IMG/VR virus record: IMGVR_UViG_3300021425_000165
Location: 1 to 26,063 of that record
Source: a virus
Length of the DNA stretch: 26,063 nt
Reading direction: 5' to 3' (one strand)
Shown here: one piece after another, positions 11,769-25,931 of the stretch
How the letters are laid out: every line of letters starts with the position of its first letter
Numbering within the stretch: position 1 is the first letter of the stretch
Position numbers and translations under genes: made by a program
Notes under the pieces: model-generated
What the model saw: the letters and a program-made list of their open reading frames with translations, nothing else
What the model was told of the DNA's origin: nothing
The model's database searches: none

Positions 11769-12125
11769 TCAGAAACGATACTTGGTGCTGAGTTCAGCCT
11801 TCCAGTCGGTCTTGGTGCTGTAACTGATTGCTTCAATCTTTGCCTTAGCAGAGAGATTGCTGCTCAGTTTGATAGCACTGCCAAGTTCAGCAGCAGTGAA
11901 ACCCTTAGTAGTGCCACCATCAGGGGTGTTAGCACCGGCACCCAGTTCAACATAAGGTTTCAGAGCACCAACTTTCCAGTCGTAACCAAGACGTGCCTGG
12001 TTGACTGCACCTTTATAGTTGTCGTCGGTGAACTTTGCTTCCGATTTGGTCATAACGTAGGGACCAGCAAGGGCAGGTGCCGTCACCATAGGAATTGCCA
12101 GGGCGGCAAGAGCGATTGCTTTCAT
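11769..12125 (-). CDS. small outer-membrane-barrel-like protein, 118 aa
   Basis: Signal peptide (residues 1-20, ending ALA) and a mature part of alternating polar and hydrophobic strands ending in KYRF. A terminal phenylalanine is the usual signal for barrel insertion in the outer membrane. It aligns with the product at 12331-12696 across signal end (AGPYV), a GALxxYV block, a PDG turn and the terminal aromatic, so the two are paralogues. With only about 98 mature residues it would form a small barrel or oligomer. Cotranscription with pstS suggests a phosphate-stress role, such as aiding phosphate entry; this is inference. Confidence 0.75.
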   Translation of the reverse strand: MKAIALAALAIPMVTAPALAGPYVMTKSEAKFTDDNYKGAVNQARLGYDWKVGALKPYVELGAGANTPDGGTTKGFTAAELGSAIKLSSNLSAKAKIEAISYSTKTDWKAELSTKYRF

Positions 12126-12171
12126 GAGTAATTTCCTTTTCTAGTGTTTGTTGTCTGTTGAAGACTTGTTT

Positions 12172-12215
12172 ATTTTAACAGAGTCTTTAGATTTTGTCGT
12201 TAAAGATTGGTTAAC
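12172..12215 (-). promoter_or_regulatory. candidate Pho box and -10 of the pstS operon
   Basis: On the minus strand GTTAACCA (12215-12208) and TTTAACGA (12204-12197) are 11 bases apart, with a degenerate third copy AATCTAAA (12193-12186). A TAAAAT -10 follows at 12177-12172, eight bases on. Tandem eight-base TTAAC repeats with three-base gaps are the cyanobacterial PhoB site pattern. There is no -35, as expected for an activator-dependent promoter. Confidence 0.55.
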
Positions 12216-12281
12216 CTTATTTTTAGACAAAACCTTCGTATATAGAGCAACTTAACTTTCTTTTAATGTTCATCCATACAC

Positions 12282-12309
12282 AAAAAAAGGATCCCCGTTA
12301 GGAGATCCT
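12282..12309 (-). terminator. intrinsic terminator after the upstream barrel gene
   Basis: AGGATCTCC and GGGGATCCT pair over nine positions (one G-T) around a four-base loop, followed by seven T on the minus strand. It separates the two barrel genes into different transcripts. Confidence 0.9.
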
Positions 12310-12330
12310 GACTTTTATCTGATTAAGTTA

Positions 12331-12696
12331 TCAGAAGCTGTACTTCACACCAACCTTGGTGCCGTAACCGTTATCAGCACCATTAGCGCCAGTAGCGAAT
12401 GCGAATTCACCATAGACACCCAGGTTCTCGGTAGCAGCAACAGAACCGCCGACCTTACCAGAAAATACGGTGTCAGAAGCAGCACCGTCAGGGCTGACCA
12501 GGGAAGGACCACCTTGGACATAGTAACCCAGAGCACCAGTCGAACCTTCGTAACCTACGTGGAAGTCGGTGGTGGTGCCAGAGTAGTCACTACCAGTGAA
12601 ACCAGAGTTGGCTTCAACGTTCACATAAGGACCTGCCATTGCAGCGCCAGCGAAAAGGGGAGCAGCAGCCAGAGCTGCGAATGCGGATTTGATCAT
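12331..12696 (-). CDS. small outer-membrane-barrel-like protein, 121 aa
   Basis: The ATG at 12696 (ribosome site GAGG) begins a clean signal peptide ending GAAMA; an upstream in-frame ATG at 12738 would add 14 polar residues and spoil it. The mature part has amphipathic beta strands rich in Gly, Val, Tyr and Ser, and ends in KYSF, the outer-membrane barrel signature. It is a paralogue of the 118-aa protein beside pstS. It has its own promoters and terminator, implying independent, probably strong expression. It may act as a small porin or surface protein; no named family is claimed. Confidence 0.78.
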   Translation of the reverse strand: MIKSAFAALAAAPLFAGAAMAGPYVNVEANSGFTGSDYSGTTTDFHVGYEGSTGALGYYVQGGPSLVSPDGAASDTVFSGKVGGSVAATENLGVYGEFAFATGANGADNGYGTKVGVKYSF

Positions 12697-12776
12697 TTTA
12701 GATACCTCGTAATTTTTACTTGTGGAATGGTTACCCACAGATGTTGGATCGGATTCGACTTCCCGATCGCATTAAT

Positions 12777-12805
12777 AGAATACCACATTACCGTGGTCAG
12801 GTCAA
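12777..12805 (-). promoter_or_regulatory. sigma-70 promoter of the 121-aa barrel gene
   Basis: TTGACC (12805-12800), 17 bases, TATTCT (12782-12777). It gives a leader of about 75 bases before the ATG at 12696. Confidence 0.6.
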
Positions 12806-12870
12806 CAAAACGTCTGCGAGTAGTTGAGGCTTTCGTTTGTTGTAAAACGTAACACTGGGTTACGTCCATT

Positions 12871-12878
12871 TATTTATA
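12871..12878 (-). promoter_or_regulatory. late promoter TATAAATA
   Basis: Exact match to the T4 late box on the minus strand, upstream of the 121-aa barrel gene. It overlaps the -10 of the sigma-70 site below, so the gene may be read both early and late. Confidence 0.6.
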
Positions 12879-12904
12879 TTACCTTAATTTTTGGTTAATG
12901 TCAA
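12876..12904 (-). promoter_or_regulatory. second sigma-70-like promoter, -35 on a stop codon
   Basis: TTGACA (12904-12899), 17 bases, TAATAT (12881-12876). The TGA inside the -35 is the stop codon of the GT25 gene. The spacer contains TTAACCA and TTAAGG 11 bases apart, a weak Pho-box-like pair. Confidence 0.5.
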
Positions 12905-13704
12905 GAGGGTGGGGGATTTTCTGCACCAGTAGGTTCAGAAACCCGACCCAGATAAGGATCATAATCCATCAAATTTTCAATCGTAAAGCTTGCACCTGTT
13001 GTTTCCCAGAAATTAGAAATTGCTTGATGGTTTCCTTTATGAAAAGCATCAACATGTTCTGGATGAATAGATGAACCCAATTCAATTCTATAAAGAAGAA
13101 AAGGAATCGAATAGGTATTACCAGAATTGTAAAGCAAATCATCAGCAACTGGTCTTGGTCTTACACCATTGTCCAGTTTATATTTGTCTCCACGACAATG
13201 AAGACGGATCATTTTTTCTGCATGATGACGAGTGATCACATAGCAAGCAGTAGAAAATTCATTTACAAATCTTTTATGAATTTTTACATGAACATCACCT
13301 GTACAGATAATTGCAAGTTGAATTACATCCCAATCGTATGGAACTCTGCCAATGGCATCTTGCCAAGTAAAGTTCCAACACTTAACCGTATTTAAACTAC
13401 AATCATCTTCCATAATGATTGCATATGGAGTATCGGATGTTTCATACCAGTGTTTGATCGCTTTGAGGTGAGAAGTTACACATCCAATCTCACCAGAAGT
13501 CATCATCTCAGGATACCTACCTTTAATGATATCACTTAGATCATCATCTCTACCATCATATGCAGAGATGCGAGTATAGTTTTCAATCTCCCAATACTTA
13601 AACTGGTTTTCCATATACTCTTTTCTTTCTGGTTGTCCATCAAGATTAATATAGTATATGGGACCAAAGTTTTTGAGTTTGTATGTTGACTTATTTTTAT
13701 CCAT
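12901..13704 (-). CDS. glycosyltransferase family 25 (LPS-type)
   Basis: GT25 enzymes transfer hexoses to lipopolysaccharide or related acceptors. The 267-aa product shows the family blocks in order: YYINLDGQPERKEYM (about 17-31), GEIGCVTSHLKAI (71-83) and the metal-binding IIMEDD (96-101). The His/Arg-rich remainder is less conserved. It is the last gene of the glycan cassette; its ATG shares one base with the stop of the GT15-like gene. No signal or membrane segment, so it acts in the cytoplasm. Confidence 0.88.
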   Translation of the reverse strand: MDKNKSTYKLKNFGPIYYINLDGQPERKEYMENQFKYWEIENYTRISAYDGRDDDLSDIIKGRYPEMMTSGEIGCVTSHLKAIKHWYETSDTPYAIIMEDDCSLNTVKCWNFTWQDAIGRVPYDWDVIQLAIICTGDVHVKIHKRFVNEFSTACYVITRHHAEKMIRLHCRGDKYKLDNGVRPRPVADDLLYNSGNTYSIPFLLYRIELGSSIHPEHVDAFHKGNHQAISNFWETTGASFTIENLMDYDPYLGRVSEPTGAENPPPS

Positions 13705-21777: not shown

Positions 21778-21785
21778 AGGGTAAC

Positions 21786-21884
21786 TCAGGCTCGCCACTT
21801 GTTTTGAGTACGAGAAAACAAGAAACTCGGCGGGAGTAAGATCCCATCCGCACCAACGGCATTTGAGAGATGACGTAAACTCAT
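21786..21884 (-). CDS. possible 32-aa protein
   Basis: The ORF starts MSLRHLSNAVGADG, continues ILLPPSFLFSRT and ends in a basic tail, just before the terminator. It is more GC-rich than its neighbours. A ribosome-like GGTGGAG lies upstream of a four-codon ORF (MTLL) whose TGA overlaps this ATG, which would allow coupled translation. It could instead be part of a structured RNA, since the sequence upstream folds well. No homologue recognised. Confidence 0.4.
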   Translation of the reverse strand: MSLRHLSNAVGADGILLPPSFLFSRTQNKWRA

Positions 21885-22784: not shown

Positions 22785-22857
22785 TGCTCGTTGTGGGGAA
22801 CGATCCCACCTATGCCGATTTATGAGATCGGTGCATTCACCAGATTGCTAAACGAGC
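22785..22857 (-). tRNA. tRNA with CAU anticodon (Met or lysidine-Ile2)
   Basis: 73-nt cloverleaf with acceptor GCTCGTT/AACGAGC, anticodon stem CCGAT/ATCGG around CTCATAA, five-base variable loop and discriminator A. It lacks initiator features, so it is elongator Met or Ile2. The T-loop ATCGTTC is unusual: T54 and A58 are exchanged for A and T. CCA is not encoded. Confidence 0.85.
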
Positions 22858-22878
22858 ATAAAATCCACAAAAGTGGAA

Positions 22879-22953
22879 TGGGAATACTGGGGATTGAACC
22901 CAGACAAGACACCCGTTATAAGCAGGCCGCTCTACCAGTTAAGCTATACTCCC
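22879..22953 (-). tRNA. tRNA-Ile (UAU)
   Basis: 75 nt. Acceptor GGGAGTA/TATTCCC (one G-T), D arm with GCTT/GAGC, anticodon loop CTTATAA, T arm CTGGG-TTCAATC-CCCAG and discriminator A. The variable region is seven bases. It reads AUA, a rare codon in many Synechococcus hosts. Confidence 0.85.
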
Positions 22954-22966
22954 ATAAGACCAAATT

Positions 22967-22995
22967 ATTTTAGGAGAATCGAAACTCTTTGTCAA
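22967..22995 (-). promoter_or_regulatory. promoter of tRNA-Ile and tRNA-CAU
   Basis: TTGACA (22995-22990), 17 bases, TAAAAT (22972-22967), about 13 bases before the mature tRNA-Ile 5' end. The -35 contains the TGA stop codon of the Phd-like gene. Confidence 0.65.
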
Positions 22996-23165
22996 GATGC
23001 TTCGTTGTGTTCTGTGTATATGCGTATGAGTTCATCATTCGCTGGTATCATTACTGCTCTCTCGCCTGTTATTATATTCTCTACACCTATTGTCTCACCA
23101 TTTTCTACTCTGTCCAGAAGAGTGTCCCAATTGTCTTGCCAGTATTCCACTGAATAAAAATCCAT
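22992..23165 (-). CDS. orphan Phd/YefM-like protein, 57 aa
   Basis: The sequence WDTLLDRVENGETIGVEN followed by TGERAVMIPANDE fits the core of Phd/YefM antitoxins, whose usual pattern is LLxRVExGExxxIxxxGxPxAxLxP. The 57-aa length retains the DNA-binding and dimer core but lacks most of the toxin-binding tail, and no toxin gene adjoins. It may therefore block host toxins or act as a repressor. A TATAAATA box lies eight bases before the ATG, leaving almost no leader. The similarity is by eye and moderate. Confidence 0.6.
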   Translation of the reverse strand: MDFYSVEYWQDNWDTLLDRVENGETIGVENIITGERAVMIPANDELIRIYTEHNEAS

Positions 23166-23173
23166 AGTTGTGA

Positions 23174-23181
23174 TATTTATA
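23174..23181 (-). promoter_or_regulatory. late promoter TATAAATA before the Phd-like gene
   Basis: Exact T4 late box on the minus strand, between tRNA-Pro and the ATG at 23165. Only eight bases separate them, so the message would be nearly leaderless. Confidence 0.5.
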
Positions 23182-23183
23182 AG

Positions 23184-23257
23184 TCGGGGTGACAGGATTC
23201 GAACCTACGACTTCTGCTTCCCAAAAGCAGCGCTCTACCAAACTGAGCTACACCCCG
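23184..23257 (-). tRNA. tRNA-Pro (UGG)
   Basis: 74 nt. Acceptor CGGGGTG/CACCCCG with the C1-G72 pair typical of bacterial tRNA-Pro, anticodon loop TTTGGGA, GGTTCGAATCC T arm, discriminator A, no encoded CCA. Confidence 0.95.
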
Positions 23258-23274
23258 TTGTTGCTTACCTAATA

Positions 23275-23303
23275 ATTATACTACTTCTCGTGGTGTTTGT
23301 CAA
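23275..23303 (-). promoter_or_regulatory. perfect consensus promoter of tRNA-Pro
   Basis: TTGACA (23303-23298), 17 bases, TATAAT (23280-23275): both hexamers match exactly. The -35 lies inside the 3' end of the 50-aa gene. The start would be about ten bases before the tRNA. Confidence 0.85.
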
Positions 23304-23433
23304 ACGGTGCCCAGTGCTGCCAGTTGTATTTGTGGACTGCCCAGATACCCATAATGGGCACAAACACAAGTATATAACAAATGAATGCTAAAAACAAGTC
23401 GTTGTTAAGTGCTACTGCTGCGAAGTGTCCCAT
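23281..23433 (-). CDS. small membrane protein, 50 aa
   Basis: MGHFAAVALNNDLFL, then one hydrophobic helix (about 13-34) and a Trp/His-rich tail ending HHEK. The ATG shares one base with the stop of the 24-aa peptide. Its 3' end carries the tRNA-Pro promoter. Function unknown. Confidence 0.6.
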   Translation of the reverse strand: MGHFAAVALNNDLFLAFICYILVFVPIMGIWAVHKYNWQHWAPFDKHHEK

Positions 23434-23507
23434 TAGATTATAGACATAAAGAACAAGAAAAAACCGAATGCTATGAAGAATCCTAAAATTAAGAATTGTG
23501 ATTCCAT
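23433..23507 (-). CDS. membrane peptide, 24 aa
   Basis: MESQFLILGFFIAFGFFL and onward is one Phe-rich helix and nothing else. It overlaps the upstream gene by 19 bases and the next gene by one. Position and hydrophobicity support it weakly. Confidence 0.45.
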   Translation of the reverse strand: MESQFLILGFFIAFGFFLFFMSII

Positions 23508-23704
23508 AGTTCTCTAAAATATCTGTCTGTGTGATTTAAACAATCGAGTGGTGCTGTTTCGTCTTTTAATGCCCATTCATAACAAAAGTCAATCATACTA
23601 GATGAAACATGATTGACTCCAAAGATTCTAGAAAATGCTGATGATGCGAAATGAAACCTTCGTCTAGTGTGCGGTGCCATTGCCCTTATAGTGTTCGGAT
23701 TCAT
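23489..23704 (-). CDS. hypothetical protein, 71 aa
   Basis: Basic N-terminus (MAPHTRRRFHFASS after a short leader), then a helical region with two cysteines. The ATG at 23704 has an AAGGGG site seven bases before it, which favours it over an internal ATG at 23680. Function unknown. Confidence 0.6.
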   Translation of the reverse strand: MNPNTIRAMAPHTRRRFHFASSAFSRIFGVNHVSSSMIDFCYEWALKDETAPLDCLNHTDRYFRELWNHNS

Positions 23705-23795
23705 AGTAGTGCCCCTTCTTTGAACCGAAATAAATTGTAGTTAATACAAATGGTATTGCAACTATAATAAGTGCTTTTCCTAACAGATGTTCCAT
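23664..23795 (-). CDS. small membrane protein, 43 aa
   Basis: MEHLLGKALIIVAIPFVLTT is a membrane helix, followed by a polar, Tyr/His-rich tail. The start at 23795 forms a TAATG with the upstream stop; the longer frame to 23861 would add unlikely overlapping sequence. Not recognised. Confidence 0.6.
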   Translation of the reverse strand: MEHLLGKALIIVAIPFVLTTIYFGSKKGHYYESEHYKGNGTAH

Positions 23796-23932
23796 TATTC
23801 TCCAGAGTTCAATTCGTTCAGGTAATCTGTCCACCATTGTGGATCCTTGTTCCTTCTCCACTGTGGAACCTCCATTCCCTTTTCAAAGTAATACTTCCAC
23901 AGGACCTCATCGATAATCTGTTTTACTTCCAT
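23795..23932 (-). CDS. hypothetical soluble protein, 45 aa
   Basis: MEVKQIIDEVLWKYYFEKG begins a helical, Trp-rich protein. A longer frame to 24040 exists, but it would overlap the 69-aa gene by 134 bases, so I prefer the ATG at 23932 (26-base overlap). The GAGGAG before it is very close to the ATG, so the start is uncertain. Confidence 0.5.
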   Translation of the reverse strand: MEVKQIIDEVLWKYYFEKGMEVPQWRRNKDPQWWTDYLNELNSGE

Positions 23933-24116
23933 ACTCCTCGTCCTCTTCATCAACGTCTCCATATGGGTTTTCCACATAGGGTCCATGTGGTCGTTTGGCA
24001 TCATCTCTGACATAGGTCCTTTCAGCTTCGATAGTTGCAATCCATACTGAGAGTTTCATTACTATGTAGATGATACCCAGTGGTAAAAAGCACGCAATGA
24101 GGATGAGTGGTTTCAT
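23907..24116 (-). CDS. membrane protein with acidic tail, 69 aa
   Basis: An N-terminal helix (MKPLILIACFLPLGIIYIVM) then a charged tail with an acidic run (DVDEEDEEYG). One cysteine in the helix; a lipobox is not convincing. ATGA-coupled to the 59-aa gene. Confidence 0.65.
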   Translation of the reverse strand: MKPLILIACFLPLGIIYIVMKLSVWIATIEAERTYVRDDAKRPHGPYVENPYGDVDEEDEEYGSKTDYR

Positions 24117-24292
24117 TTGTCTTTTAGCAACTCTTCTATTCTTTTACGCATGTCTTCGGACTTCTTCTGTTCTCTTTCACAATGTCTGTAACCATGTTGT
24201 CCTCTCAGGATCATTGTGCTCTGATAGAACATCGTGATCCCAAAAACAAATAATAAAATACAACCAATCAGTTCAATGTGATTTTGAGCCAT
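24113..24292 (-). CDS. membrane protein with basic coiled-coil tail, 59 aa
   Basis: One helix (about 7-27, IELIGCILLFVFGITMF) and a long charged helix (REQKKSEDMRKRIEELLKDK). The ATGA junction with the next gene and a 25-base overlap with the previous one fit the local pattern. Function unknown. Confidence 0.6.
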   Translation of the reverse strand: MAQNHIELIGCILLFVFGITMFYQSTMILRGQHGYRHCEREQKKSEDMRKRIEELLKDK

Positions 24293-24468
24293 GGCAGTAG
24301 GGGTGGAATAGCCCCGACGAGTCTTAGAAGTCCCTCAGCAAATAAAGCAAGAACCACCCAACCGACGCACATACTAATGATAGAAGCATTACGGTTGTGT
24401 CGTCGTATTGCTGCATCGATCATCTCCTGAATTTCAGCACGACTAACCAATTCATCTTGAGGTTCCAT
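24268..24468 (-). CDS. membrane protein with acidic N-terminal helix, 66 aa
   Basis: A soluble helix (MEPQDELVSRAEIQEMIDAA) then a basic turn and a C-terminal membrane region (about 32-60). The ATG overlaps the upstream TGA by one base, which decides it over the GTG one codon earlier. The domain order is opposite to that of its downstream neighbours. Function unknown. Confidence 0.65.
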   Translation of the reverse strand: MEPQDELVSRAEIQEMIDAAIRRHNRNASIISMCVGWVVLALFAEGLLRLVGAIPPLLPWLKITLN

Positions 24469-24617
24469 CACGGTTCATCTCCAAGAAATTTTGCCAGAGG
24501 GTCTCTTCTGGTTTTTACGATTTCTATTGCTCTTTTGTAGAACATATTGTCTGTGTTGCCAGACTGTTCGAAGGTCTCCTTGATCTTCACCCAATTATTA
24601 TAGGTGTGTTGATCCAT
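24468..24617 (-). CDS. hypothetical soluble protein, 49 aa
   Basis: MDQHTYNNWVKIKETFEQ begins a helical, charged protein with no membrane segment. GGAG ribosome site. First gene after the promoter with a palindromic -10 region, so it heads the row of small genes down to 23281. Confidence 0.65.
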   Translation of the reverse strand: MDQHTYNNWVKIKETFEQSGNTDNMFYKRAIEIVKTRRDPLAKFLGDEP

Positions 24618-24630
24618 TCGTTTTCTCCGT

Positions 24631-24652
24631 ATTACTACTATATTGTAGTAAT
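24631..24652. repeat. perfect inverted repeat over a -10 box
   Basis: ATTACTAC and GTAGTAAT are perfect eight-bp arms around six bases. The repeat covers the -10 (24647-24642) and the start region of the promoter of the 49-aa gene, as an operator or a 5'-end hairpin would. Confidence 0.6.
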
Positions 24653-24669
24653 CATACTTTTGAAGTCAA
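24642..24669 (-). promoter_or_regulatory. sigma-70 promoter of the small-gene row
   Basis: TTGACT (24669-24664), 16 bases, TACAAT (24647-24642), 25 bases before the ATG at 24617. Confidence 0.65.
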
Positions 24670-24729
24670 CAAATGTGTTCACAACGTAACAGTGTTGAAG
24701 AAAATATTAAATTTGTAACTTATCTTAAA

Positions 24730-24814
24730 CGGAAAGTCAGGGATTCGAACCCTGGGAGGTGTGACCCTCGCTGGTTTTCAAGACCAGTGCCATAAACCAC
24801 TCGACCAACTTTCC
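24730..24814 (-). tRNA. tRNA-Ser (UGA)
   Basis: 85-nt class II tRNA. Acceptor GGAAAGT/ACTTTCC, anticodon stem CTGGT/ACCAG around CTTGAAA, long variable arm with a GAGGGT/ACCTCC stem, T arm CAGGG-TTCGAAT-CCCTG and discriminator G, as expected for serine. Confidence 0.95.
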
Positions 24815-24822
24815 AGGTTTTT

Positions 24823-25074
24823 TCAACGAATTTCGAAGTCTAATCTACGAACTTTACGTTGTCTTCTTGCCTCTTGCCAGGCAATATCTTGAGAGGATAA
24901 CACACTTGTTTTTTGTGTTTCCTTTAAAGAGTTTAACATAACAACTTTAGATAAGTCAAGTGCTGAAATCTTATCACCACGAATTGTTGCCATGTTAGGG
25001 CATCCGCAAGTAACTGTTTTACTTGGATGACCTGTTATCTCTCTATTGCAATCTTTGCATCTTATAGAAATCAT
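24823..25074 (-). CDS. zinc-ribbon-like protein, 83 aa
   Basis: The N-terminus MISIRCKDCNREITG followed by VTCGCPN gives CxxC (residues 6, 9) and CxC (23, 25), enough to bind one zinc. The rest is a helical, basic region ending in ARRQRKVRRLDFEIR. This suggests a small nucleic-acid- or polymerase-binding protein. It starts three bases after the Dps-like gene and is therefore probably late. Confidence 0.7.
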   Translation of the reverse strand: MISIRCKDCNREITGHPSKTVTCGCPNMATIRGDKISALDLSKVVMLNSLKETQKTSVLSSQDIAWQEARRQRKVRRLDFEIR

Positions 25075-25077
25075 TTC

Positions 25078-25515
25078 TCATTCCTTTAAATACGACCTTA
25101 ACATCCAAACAAATTTACCATGAGTTTCAATTAAATCTTGAGCAATATTTGACGTAGTATATTGCTTTGTTTTTTCCGATTCTTCCACTACTGTTGTAAG
25201 AAGTTCAATTACTTTCTTATTATCAGAAAGTAATTGAGATACCATAGATCTATCAGTTGGACTTAATGATGCCTCTGGAATCTCAGATGTTTCAATAACT
25301 GTACTAATTGACGAAATAGCCTTCATGCGAAGATATCTCATATGTTCAGTTAATCTATCTAACTCACCTTGCATTGTAGTGTATTGTTCACCAAATGCTT
25401 CATGGAGTTCAAAAAAATCAGAACCAACTACATTCCAATGATACACCCACGTTTTCTGCATTAAGCAAAAAAGACTTGTTTGTGTTTTATGTAATGATTG
25501 GTATAACTCGTTCAT
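25078..25515 (-). CDS. dps: Dps-like ferritin-family protein with altered metal site
   Basis: Dps proteins form dodecamers that bind DNA and oxidise iron with H2O2. The 145-aa product has the N-terminal signature YHWNVVGSDFFELH with His26 and His38, then Asp53 and Glu57, at the same spacing as His51, His63, Asp78 and Glu82 of E. coli Dps. The position of the ligand Asp67 is Gly42, with Glu43 next to it, so ferroxidase activity may be changed. The ATG at 25515 follows a CATAAATA late box; the longer frame to 25713 runs through tRNA genes and is not real. Together with peroxiredoxin it may limit oxidative damage. Confidence 0.82.
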   Translation of the reverse strand: MNELYQSLHKTQTSLFCLMQKTWVYHWNVVGSDFFELHEAFGEQYTTMQGELDRLTEHMRYLRMKAISSISTVIETSEIPEASLSPTDRSMVSQLLSDNKKVIELLTTVVEESEKTKQYTTSNIAQDLIETHGKFVWMLRSYLKE

Positions 25516-25528
25516 TATCTTTTTGAAA

Positions 25529-25536
25529 TATTTATG
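25529..25536 (-). promoter_or_regulatory. candidate late promoter CATAAATA before dps
   Basis: Same octamer as at 6020-6027, 13 bases before the ATG at 25515 and directly after tRNA-Val. Confidence 0.6.
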
Positions 25537-25537
25537 A

Positions 25538-25610
25538 TGGGAGCAGAGGGATTCGAACCCCCGACATTCTGCGTGTAAAGCAGACGCTGCTACCGCTGAG
25601 CTATGCTCCC
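25538..25610 (-). tRNA. tRNA-Val (UAC)
   Basis: 73 nt. Acceptor GGGAGCA/TGCTCCC, anticodon stem TCTGC/GCAGA around TTTACAC, T arm GGGGG-TTCGAAT-CCCTC with a G-T pair, discriminator A. Confidence 0.95.
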
Positions 25611-25613
25611 TAA

Positions 25614-25654
25614 AGGGTGGAAGGTAATCCCACTCGCATAAATGCGTCCACCCT
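25614..25654. other. 41-nt structured spacer element
   Basis: A perfect eight-bp outer stem (AGGGTGGA/TCCACCCT) encloses an inner hairpin (CGCAT-AA-ATGCG, 25635-25646) and an unpaired side. It lies between tRNA-Asn and tRNA-Val. It may be a processing signal, a stable small RNA or a tRNA remnant that kept its acceptor stem. Confidence 0.4.
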
Positions 25655-25655
25655 A

Positions 25656-25728
25656 CTCCCCCACCTGGACTCGAACCAGGAACCCCAAAGTTAACAGCTT
25701 CGTGCTCTGCCAATTGAGCTATAGAGGA
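25656..25728 (-). tRNA. tRNA-Asn (GUU)
   Basis: 73 nt. Acceptor TCCTCTA/TGGGGGA with two G-T pairs, anticodon loop CTGTTAA, T arm CCTGG-TTCGAGT-CCAGG, discriminator G as expected for Asn. It is the only tRNA here with G34 rather than U34 or C34. Confidence 0.93.
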
Positions 25729-25747
25729 ATAAAATCCCCGAAGGGGA
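25728..25747 (-). terminator. weak terminator or processing hairpin between tRNAs
   Basis: TCCCC/GGGGA with a TTC loop (or a cUUCGg tetraloop), followed by TTTTATT on the minus strand. It lies between tRNA-Gly and tRNA-Asn. The stem is short, so it may only help 3' processing. Confidence 0.4.
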
Positions 25748-25819
25748 AGCGGAGTATCGGAATCGAACCGACGACATCTAACTTGGAAGGATAGCGTTCT
25801 ACCGCTGAACTAACTCCGC
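25748..25819 (-). tRNA. tRNA-Gly (UCC)
   Basis: 72 nt. Acceptor GCGGAGT/ACTCCGC, anticodon stem CTATC/GTTAG around CTTCCAA, T arm TCGG-TTCGATT-CCGA, discriminator T as expected for glycine. Confidence 0.94.
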
Positions 25820-25828
25820 AATGAGACA

Positions 25829-25857
25829 ATCATAAACCATTTTGGTTTGATTGTCAA
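25829..25857 (-). promoter_or_regulatory. promoter of tRNA-Gly, in an inverted repeat
   Basis: TTGACA (25857-25852), 17 bases, TATGAT (25834-25829). The hexamers lie in the arms of an imperfect hairpin (25825-25855). The expected start, near 25822, is only about three bases before the tRNA. Confidence 0.75.
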
Positions 25858-25931
25858 CGACTCAGGAGGGACTTGAACCCCCGACCAACTGCTTAGAAGG
25901 CAGATGCTCTATCCAACTGAGCTACTGAGTC
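25858..25931 (-). tRNA. tRNA-Arg (UCU)
   Basis: 74 nt. Acceptor GACTCAG/CTGAGTC, anticodon stem TCTGC/GCAGT around CTTCTAA, T arm GGGGG-TTCAAGT-CCCTC with a G-T pair, discriminator G. It reads AGA, a rare codon in many Synechococcus hosts. Confidence 0.94.

Follow-up and report, generated by a model that had tools for sequence, protein, structure and literature searches.

The window, that is, the whole 26,063 bases of the IMG/VR virus record IMGVR_UViG_3300021425_000165, contains cyanophage genes; the phage-encoded origin proposed by an initial annotation for the two proteins studied here is supported. Both are encoded on the minus strand, where the order of transcription is a glycosyltransferase family 25 gene (13704–12901), omp-B (12696–12331), omp-A (12125–11769) and pstS (11747–10758). 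The glycosyltransferase gene lies just 5′ of omp-B (P0002), which encodes 121 amino acids from the ATG at 12696. The 118-residue omp-A (P0001) is the first gene of a unit shared with pstS (P0003), the gene for the periplasmic phosphate-binding protein, which starts 21 nt after it. The PstS of the window scored 262.1 bits with the NCBIfam equivalog TIGR00975, above its cut-off of 205. The sites found between these genes are likewise on the minus strand. A Pho-type direct repeat (12199–12214) precedes omp-A and consists of two TTAAC (12199–12203 and 12210–12214) 11 bp apart, the sequence signature of the Pho regulon; a second TTAA pair of 11-bp spacing lies at 12252–12266, and a −10-like TAAAAT (12172–12177; 9 of 12 consensus matches, poor −35) is found downstream of the repeat. 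A terminator-like hairpin with a T run (12288–12309) separates omp-B from the Pho-type repeats. For omp-B, the T4-type late-promoter motif TATAAATA (12871–12878) overlaps a sigma-70-like site, TTGACA-17-TAATAT (12876–12904), and the 5′ UTR contains a two-hairpin leader RNA (12703–12779) that scored 57.3 bits (E 2e-12) with the model R1, which includes this copy among its sequences. Thus, one copy lies behind tandem TTAAC repeats with pstS and the other has its own terminator, sigma-70-like site and late promoter motif, as had been claimed. Because the site scan is expected to return 1.3 promoter-like and 1.2 terminator-like sites in the window by chance, single sites are weak proof and the weight is carried by motif counts across the family.

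Both proteins belong to the Pfam family PF24653 (Phage_OMP), titled “Cyanophage outer membrane protein like beta barrel domain” and annotated as DUF680 in phages. The scores were 123.9 bits (5.6e-36, residues 1–118) for omp-A and 173.1 bits (3.3e-51, residues 1–121) for omp-B against a cut-off of 27 bits, and both fall in PHROG 417, which is labelled function unknown. The two align by BLASTP with 26% identity over 102 residues (E 1e-13); since both also score far above the same Pfam cut-off, the paralogy noticed earlier is not due to chance. The landmarks AGPYV, GAL(KP/GY)YV and PDG were found in both, as were the related C termini KYRF (omp-A) and KYSF (omp-B), and among 213 distinct relatives AGP is present in 207 and the terminal F in 211. 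The signal peptides of the initial annotation correspond to short hydrophobic leaders ending in A-GP, as read from the sequence; with such leaders and a C-terminal aromatic-x-F, both proteins look like exported proteins. The OprB (PF04966) and SLH (PF00395) families were not among the Pfam matches of either protein at E up to 10.

One 100/100 branch divided a 94-sequence tree into 39 and 55 rows. The rows adjacent to pstS fell in one group, clade A, in 30 of 31 cases, and those one gene further upstream fell in the other, clade B, in 33 of 34. The tree kept 94 of 213 sequences, after removal of rows shorter than 112 aa and of those sharing 85% identity or more with another row, and the branching order within the clades is left unclaimed because the tree program warned of few columns and long branches. 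When the 213 distinct proteins were scored with profiles, 104 were assigned to clade A, 109 to clade B and none was ambiguous; omp-A belongs to clade A and omp-B to clade B. TTAA repeats at 11-bp spacing were found 5′ of 64 of the 86 pstS-adjacent clade A genes, where first-order shuffles predict 3.4, and spacings of 8, 9 and 12–15 bp in 0 to 8 of the 86. Within 150 bases upstream of these genes, the spacing of 11 was seen in 63/86, of 10 in 31/86 and of 21 in 30/86. A looser Pho-type pattern was present before 74 of 86 (9.4 expected), and the strict CTTA-N7-CTTA form before 13 of 86 only. Among the 19 clade A genes for which no pstS was seen, 12 also have the 11-bp repeats upstream, compared with 5/48 and 2/60 in two sets of clade B genes. 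The reverse was found for TATAAATA, which lies upstream of 36/48 and 34/60 clade B genes (expected 0.5 and 0.8), and of 1/86 pstS-adjacent clade A genes and 0/19 of those with no pstS seen. The two copies are therefore two clades with opposite upstream signals, Pho-type in clade A and the late-promoter motif in clade B, which fits the proposal that the second copy serves another phase of infection. Late and Pho motifs of this kind are used in passages of PMC3037559, and the Pho motif also in passages of PMC10976474. Two TTAA 11 bp apart, the Pho-type spacing, occur on the minus strand at 12884–12898, inside the spacer of the sigma-70-like site of omp-B; unlike in this spacer, such pairs are scarce across clade B overall.

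The 5′ UTRs of clade B genes contain two hairpins immediately ahead of the start, and the first loop is usually GTCGA. In an alignment of 66 leaders (A3, made of 65 of the 69 CATCYG leaders and that of the window, the badly aligning L092, L104, L107 and L241 being omitted), standard pairs filled 90.7% of the pair cells against 73.0% in shuffles, both-side changes were seen in 141 cells against 45.9, and the covariation score was 0.537 against 0.227. Pairing fell to 32–60% when the helix partners were slid. Two of the five covariation measures were about the same as in shuffles (double-changed pairs, 9 vs 8.7; further pair types, 25 vs 22.7). The second helix is paired in every sequence, with double changes in three of five pairs; the first is paired in 82.9% of cells, a low figure that is partly explained by about a dozen leaders, including that of the window, which look register-shifted by eye. 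Both GTCGA and CATCYG are present in 78 of the 108 distinct clade B leaders, CATCYG only in 13, GTCGA only in 1 and neither in 16; in the leader set of 80, CATCYG was absent from 11. The idea that the omp-B leader is unusually stable by itself was rejected (z −1.40 in the window, with 19 of 200 shuffles equally good), and as lone folding stability is unremarkable, the case for the RNA rests on covariation. Rfam 15 gave no gathering match near 12703–12779, the best of any family in 12100–12920 having E 1.7 and lying off the leader. When 12 whole records or genomes were searched with the leader model, seven had matches at E < 0.001, all of which precede a clade B leader peptide as read by eye; among the same 12, no leader was found in two porin carriers (G006 and G007) or in P-SSP2, and only a weak one in two. 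A strict DNA pattern of the leader picked out 25 viral contigs, of which 24 have a clade B gene as the next open frame and the 25th a clade B gene with an in-frame internal gap. At about 5290–5510 of contig L336, a clade B gene has been cut by an in-frame gap to its leader, first and last strand, with the leader RNA kept. That this RNA controls translation or message stability is a plain guess.

AlphaFold predicted six strands in each protein, with a mean pLDDT of 84.7 for omp-A (58 sequences) and 85.8 for omp-B (53 sequences). The top-ranked structural matches of both models were mostly outer-membrane barrels, and no Foldseek match of either model reached E 0.001. On second-look alignment, the OprF N-domain came first for omp-B (Z 11.0, 2.6 Å over 101). 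Omp-A aligned with OprF at Z 9.5 (4.1 Å over 108) and more tightly with stretches of TMB10_163 (1.5 Å over 87 residues, Z 8.9) and KdgM (2.0 Å over 89, Z 9.3), the signal peptide taking part in many of the omp-A match rows. Avidins appeared lower in the second-look list of omp-B, and a few non-membrane proteins were among the other structural matches. The OprF N-domain, NspA, OmpX and KdgM are among the best matches, with 9 to 17% identity in those rows, and these barrels have eight or twelve strands, against six here. To our knowledge, no natural membrane barrel built from one chain has fewer than eight strands, and with six predicted strands both proteins fall short of the at least eight strands round a pore in each chain that define general porins. 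The models may be read as an open six-strand sheet, the strands having been counted without coordinates, and a pore made from two or more chains is possible. Hence, of the mini-barrels claimed earlier, for which structure prediction had been suggested as a check, the six confident strands, the barrel-type matches and an outer-membrane type by prediction hold, whereas strands are fewer than eight and closure of the barrel was not seen. In both clades, strand faces alternate between polar and apolar (p 1e-4 and 1e-3 relative to column shuffles). A net charge of +2.5 was found on the more polar face in clade A, with 11.4 K/R and 8.9 D/E on average, and of −2.2 in clade B; the whole mature proteins are net negative in both (−3.0 and −8.3).

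The distribution of the family was monitored by tblastn over 50,697 phage records. With clades pooled, relatives of omp-A were found in 167 records and of omp-B in 463, and the names of the matching records start with Synechococcus, Cyanophage, Prochlorococcus, Marine or uncultured; a PstS relative was found in 105 records, of cyanophages and others. PF24653, PHROG 417, DUF680, T4-GC 241 and PhCOG173 are the same family, and P-SSM2 has the gene order of the window, g246 and g247 (both noted T4-GC 241) followed by pstS (g248). In S-SM2 the order is omp-B, omp-A, pstS and phoA. A scan of the 80 best viral matches to the PstS of the window, which is not a random draw, left 64 scorable loci, the other 16 having less than 700 bases upstream. 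Ahead of pstS, 36 of these carry both omp-B and omp-A and 9 omp-A without omp-B; 15 have a porin, one a porin together with omp-B, one omp-B by itself and two none of these, so that an outer-membrane-type gene is found in 62 of 64. In S-TIM4, P-RSM4 and P-SSM4, pstS is present and no Phage_OMP member was found in the 2.5–2.7 kb read, which weakens the tight pairing of omp-A and pstS. The clade A gene of S-B64 adjoins hsp20, and that of the podovirus P-SSP2 lies between hli and psbA, with no pstS annotated within 3 kb of either. Genes of clade B type were also noticed in bacterial and archaeal metagenome bins (L245–L250 and L252–L254), including a 188-kb contig of a Nonlabens assembly (L248); these are perhaps cyanophage contigs put in the wrong genome.

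The porin of about 500 aa that stands ahead of pstS in 16 of the 64 scored loci was of the OprB/SLH type, both domains having been found by Pfam in the two porins tested (L232 and L230) and the others being recognised by a model built from three porins. Like the genes of the window it is found before pstS, in other cyanophage contigs, yet it is unrelated in sequence; in S-SRM01 the porin is present with no pstS annotated within 4 kb. Ten of the 18 porin loci also contain a relative of the glycosyltransferase of the window. Each of the 14 distinct gaps from porin to pstS holds a Pho-type repeat (1.9 expected); three of these gaps exceed 500 nt and have another frame inside. TATAAATA was absent from all 13 distinct porin upstreams, and the idea that the porin shares the late motif of omp-B was rejected; TAAATA is present in 10 of the 13, with a TTGAC-like box preceding it in 8. 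The porin as a replacement of omp-A was also rejected: because the Pho-type repeat follows the porin and stands before pstS alone, the porin takes the place of omp-B and omp-A is missing. Its position supports a porin-kind identity of omp-B more than of omp-A. The leader RNA was also found ahead of two porin genes, L226 and L230 (71.6 and 66.6 bits), among the 17 pstS loci of L221–L240 searched, and these two have a similar leader peptide as well. The “putative S-layer protein” of S-PM2 (H164–H166) matches the L232 porin at residues 54–141 only, its SLH-domain region, and may be a remnant of an OprB/SLH-type porin.

Relatives of the family were also found in hosts. Among 300 genomes from the family to which G001, a single-cell genome of Prochlorococcus, belongs, 43 had a PF24653 match at E ≤ 0.001, 28 of them above the cut-off; none of 14 control genomes had one. 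Most of these matches are parts of frames of about 200–440 aa. The neighbourhoods were examined in 35 of the 43 genomes (loci L275–L279, L287, L288 and L290–L321; G001, G026, G075, G079, G138, G199, G237 and G288 are outside the count), and in 29 of the 35 loci a larger host kind of 318–335 aa directly adjoins ZnuA on the same strand. These loci mostly have ZnuB and ZnuC too, and often a Fur-family gene; ZnuA (6.6e-43), the ABC-3 permease and the ABC_tran ATPase were confirmed by Pfam in one locus and recognised in the others by phmmer to these. Of the six other loci, L287, L311 and L313 have Fur and CobW-type genes and three have none of these genes, one of them at a contig end. A smaller kind is made of two units. 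Five host frames of 260–360 aa, counted from stop to stop, hold two PF24653 matches, and Pfam found two stretches in each of three scanned proteins of 256–260 aa (1.1e-13, 5.9e-11 and 2.3e-13). Compared with one another, the halves of this kind aligned at E 1.5e-16; with clade B they gave E 2.2e-9 and 2.7e-6, and with clade A only poor matches (probabilities 5.7 and 59.8). The two-unit kind adjoins the larger kind in the ZnuA cluster of L310 and L312 and stands with Fur and CobW genes in three loci. In the larger kind, a relationship could be demonstrated for the C-terminal half alone, with clade B; the N half has no significant relation to clade B, so the description as two units was dropped for it and kept for the kind of about 260 aa. 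Where read, the larger kind includes a His-, Asp- and Glu-rich stretch. Plain single-unit host copies were rejected, as the short strong matches in G001, G075 and G288 may be phage DNA, and the G124 copy has internal stops. The idea that this outer-membrane protein was named in studies of the zinc sensor of Synechococcus WH8102 was dropped, since PMC9337993 contains none of the terms porin, outer membrane and histidine-rich. As in the window, the host gene beside znuABC adjoins the periplasmic binding protein of an importer, but the host proteins are of about 256–335 aa where read, one kind has two units, the substrate is zinc and not phosphate, and a Fur-family gene is often near. The ZnuA neighbourhood is the strongest pointer to function and suggests that the family goes with the periplasmic binding protein of an importer.

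Among the auxiliary genes of cyanophages, pstS is well known, and in 2012 Zeng and Chisholm reportedly found it to be controlled by the host PhoBR. The pstS of P-SSM2 is placed under host PhoBR control in passages of PMC10976474. The unit in the window has Pho-type repeats ahead of it as in these phages; unlike the pstS described there, its first gene is omp-A, and it is known here from sequence alone. The PF24653 family and its phosphate link are not new: a role of DUF680/PhCOG173 under phosphate limitation has been suggested in published passages, and PMC9146016 mentions that DUF680 is preceded by Pho boxes “in some reports”. A passage of PMC3037559 gives pstS in 9 of 16 cyanophages and DUF680 in 15, and one of PMC3686209 describes a DUF680 cluster from 7 of 17 T4-like phages as over-represented at BATS, like phage PstS; this cluster is presumably clade A. 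New in the present analysis are the division into two clades, the covarying leader, the gene counts upstream of pstS, the link of the larger host relatives with ZnuA, the two-unit host kind and the six predicted strands. The published passages on the family treat Phage_OMP as one, whereas two clades with opposite upstream motifs are seen here. A literature search did not find the split, the leader RNA or the zinc link stated, which is weak evidence of novelty as most subscription papers were outside its reach. The split matters for the reading of older DUF680 work. For example, the DUF680 gene of S-TIM4 was lost repeatedly when the phage grew in Synechococcus WH8102 (PMC6224464), and the protein is clade B by profile models (91.4 vs 31.3 bits) with TATAAATA upstream; a nutrient-response label may thus not fit it, and its loss need not concern phosphate. 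Because the loss of this omp-B relative was selected in that experiment and three phages have pstS without omp-A, neither omp-A nor omp-B is essential.

For a periplasmic binding protein to be of use, phosphate must first get across the outer membrane. Our best explanation, held tentatively and at slightly less than an even chance, is that these cyanophage genes form an outer-membrane module with two phases, in which omp-A would be the outer-membrane partner of the phage PstS. In a phosphate-short infected cell, the host PhoB would turn on omp-A and pstS together, as the Pho-type repeats suggest. Omp-A would be exported and inserted in the outer membrane, in line with its leader, strand pattern and C-terminal aromatic-x-F, and PstS would be exported to the periplasm. 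Omp-A might let phosphate through or hand it on, perhaps as a two-chain barrel, and together they would raise the phosphate supply to the host PstCAB permease. Late in infection, the putative late promoter would make omp-B, a general outer-membrane protein, under the structured leader RNA. The initial annotation had proposed a phosphate uptake route; the nutrient link gains indirect support from the host ZnuA adjacency (29/35) and the outer-membrane-type genes before pstS (62/64), and the evidence, mainly that of the host zinc neighbourhood, suggests that the idea is better supported than before, although unproven. Several observations count against uptake. A lone six-strand chain, if the models are right, would have no room for a pore; the clade A members of S-B64 and P-SSP2 have no pstS nearby, and the mature proteins are net negative; in the porin loci the Pho-type repeat precedes pstS without omp-A, and it is omp-B, not omp-A, whose place the porin occupies; and the ZnuA-adjacent host relatives appear tied to clade B, and only through their C-terminal half. 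A more specific form, which we think unlikely, is that Phage_OMP is a six-strand half-barrel closing as a chain pair into a 12-strand pore; hosts would fuse both halves in zinc-import clusters, and phages would keep a Pho-controlled half with a basic inner face for phosphate beside PstS and a late half under the leader RNA. If so, it would be the smallest known building block of a natural outer-membrane channel, in a phage-made uptake line from the outer to the inner membrane. Should omp-A supply the missing step at the outer membrane, the uptake unit carried by phages would span two membranes, and a function would be gained for a very common cyanophage gene (omp-B relatives in 463 phage records) and for a host family beside znuA.

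Enteric phages encode outer-membrane proteins that exclude other phages or hide receptors, such as Lom of lambda and the PA-2 porin, and both cyanophage proteins might remodel the outer membrane in the same manner, with Pho control merely matching the supply of omp-A to starved cells. The excess of omp-B relatives (463 records, clades pooled) over records with a PstS relative (105), the late motif of clade B and the glycosyltransferase neighbours, which also suit surface change, agree with remodelling, as does the loss of a clade B gene in single-host passage (PMC6224464), expected of a protein needed only under competition. It predicts, however, neither the Pho-type unit common to omp-A and pstS nor the ZnuA neighbourhood in hosts, and we rate it as rather unlikely. 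Omp-A could instead be a channel-less partner of PstS in the outer membrane or periplasm, an anchor or phosphate gatherer, while host porins do the transport by diffusion. Six strands leave no pore in one chain and clade A packs many charges onto its more polar face, unlike an open channel; the OprB/SLH-type porin in the cluster of other phages nevertheless favours membrane passage, albeit in the place of omp-B, and a channel-less role seems doubtful to us. It is very improbable that the clade members are minor virion or lysis proteins with pstS as an incidental neighbour. A DUF680 protein is listed in purified S-SZBM1 particles, apparently with 2 peptides and 25.4% coverage, in part of PMC9146016, and the late motif of omp-B would suit such a role, but the S-TIM4 DUF680 gene is among the mutated genes listed as not particle-associated (PMC6224464) and such a role leaves the Pho-type repeats of clade A unaccounted for.

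Elsewhere on the minus strand of the window, the wcaG and PhotoRC-II RNA motifs (21784–21884 and 17–116) scored above the Rfam gathering scores. Eight Rfam tRNA matches lie at 22785–25931, also on the minus strand, and a ferritin-like gene is found inside 25078–25713.
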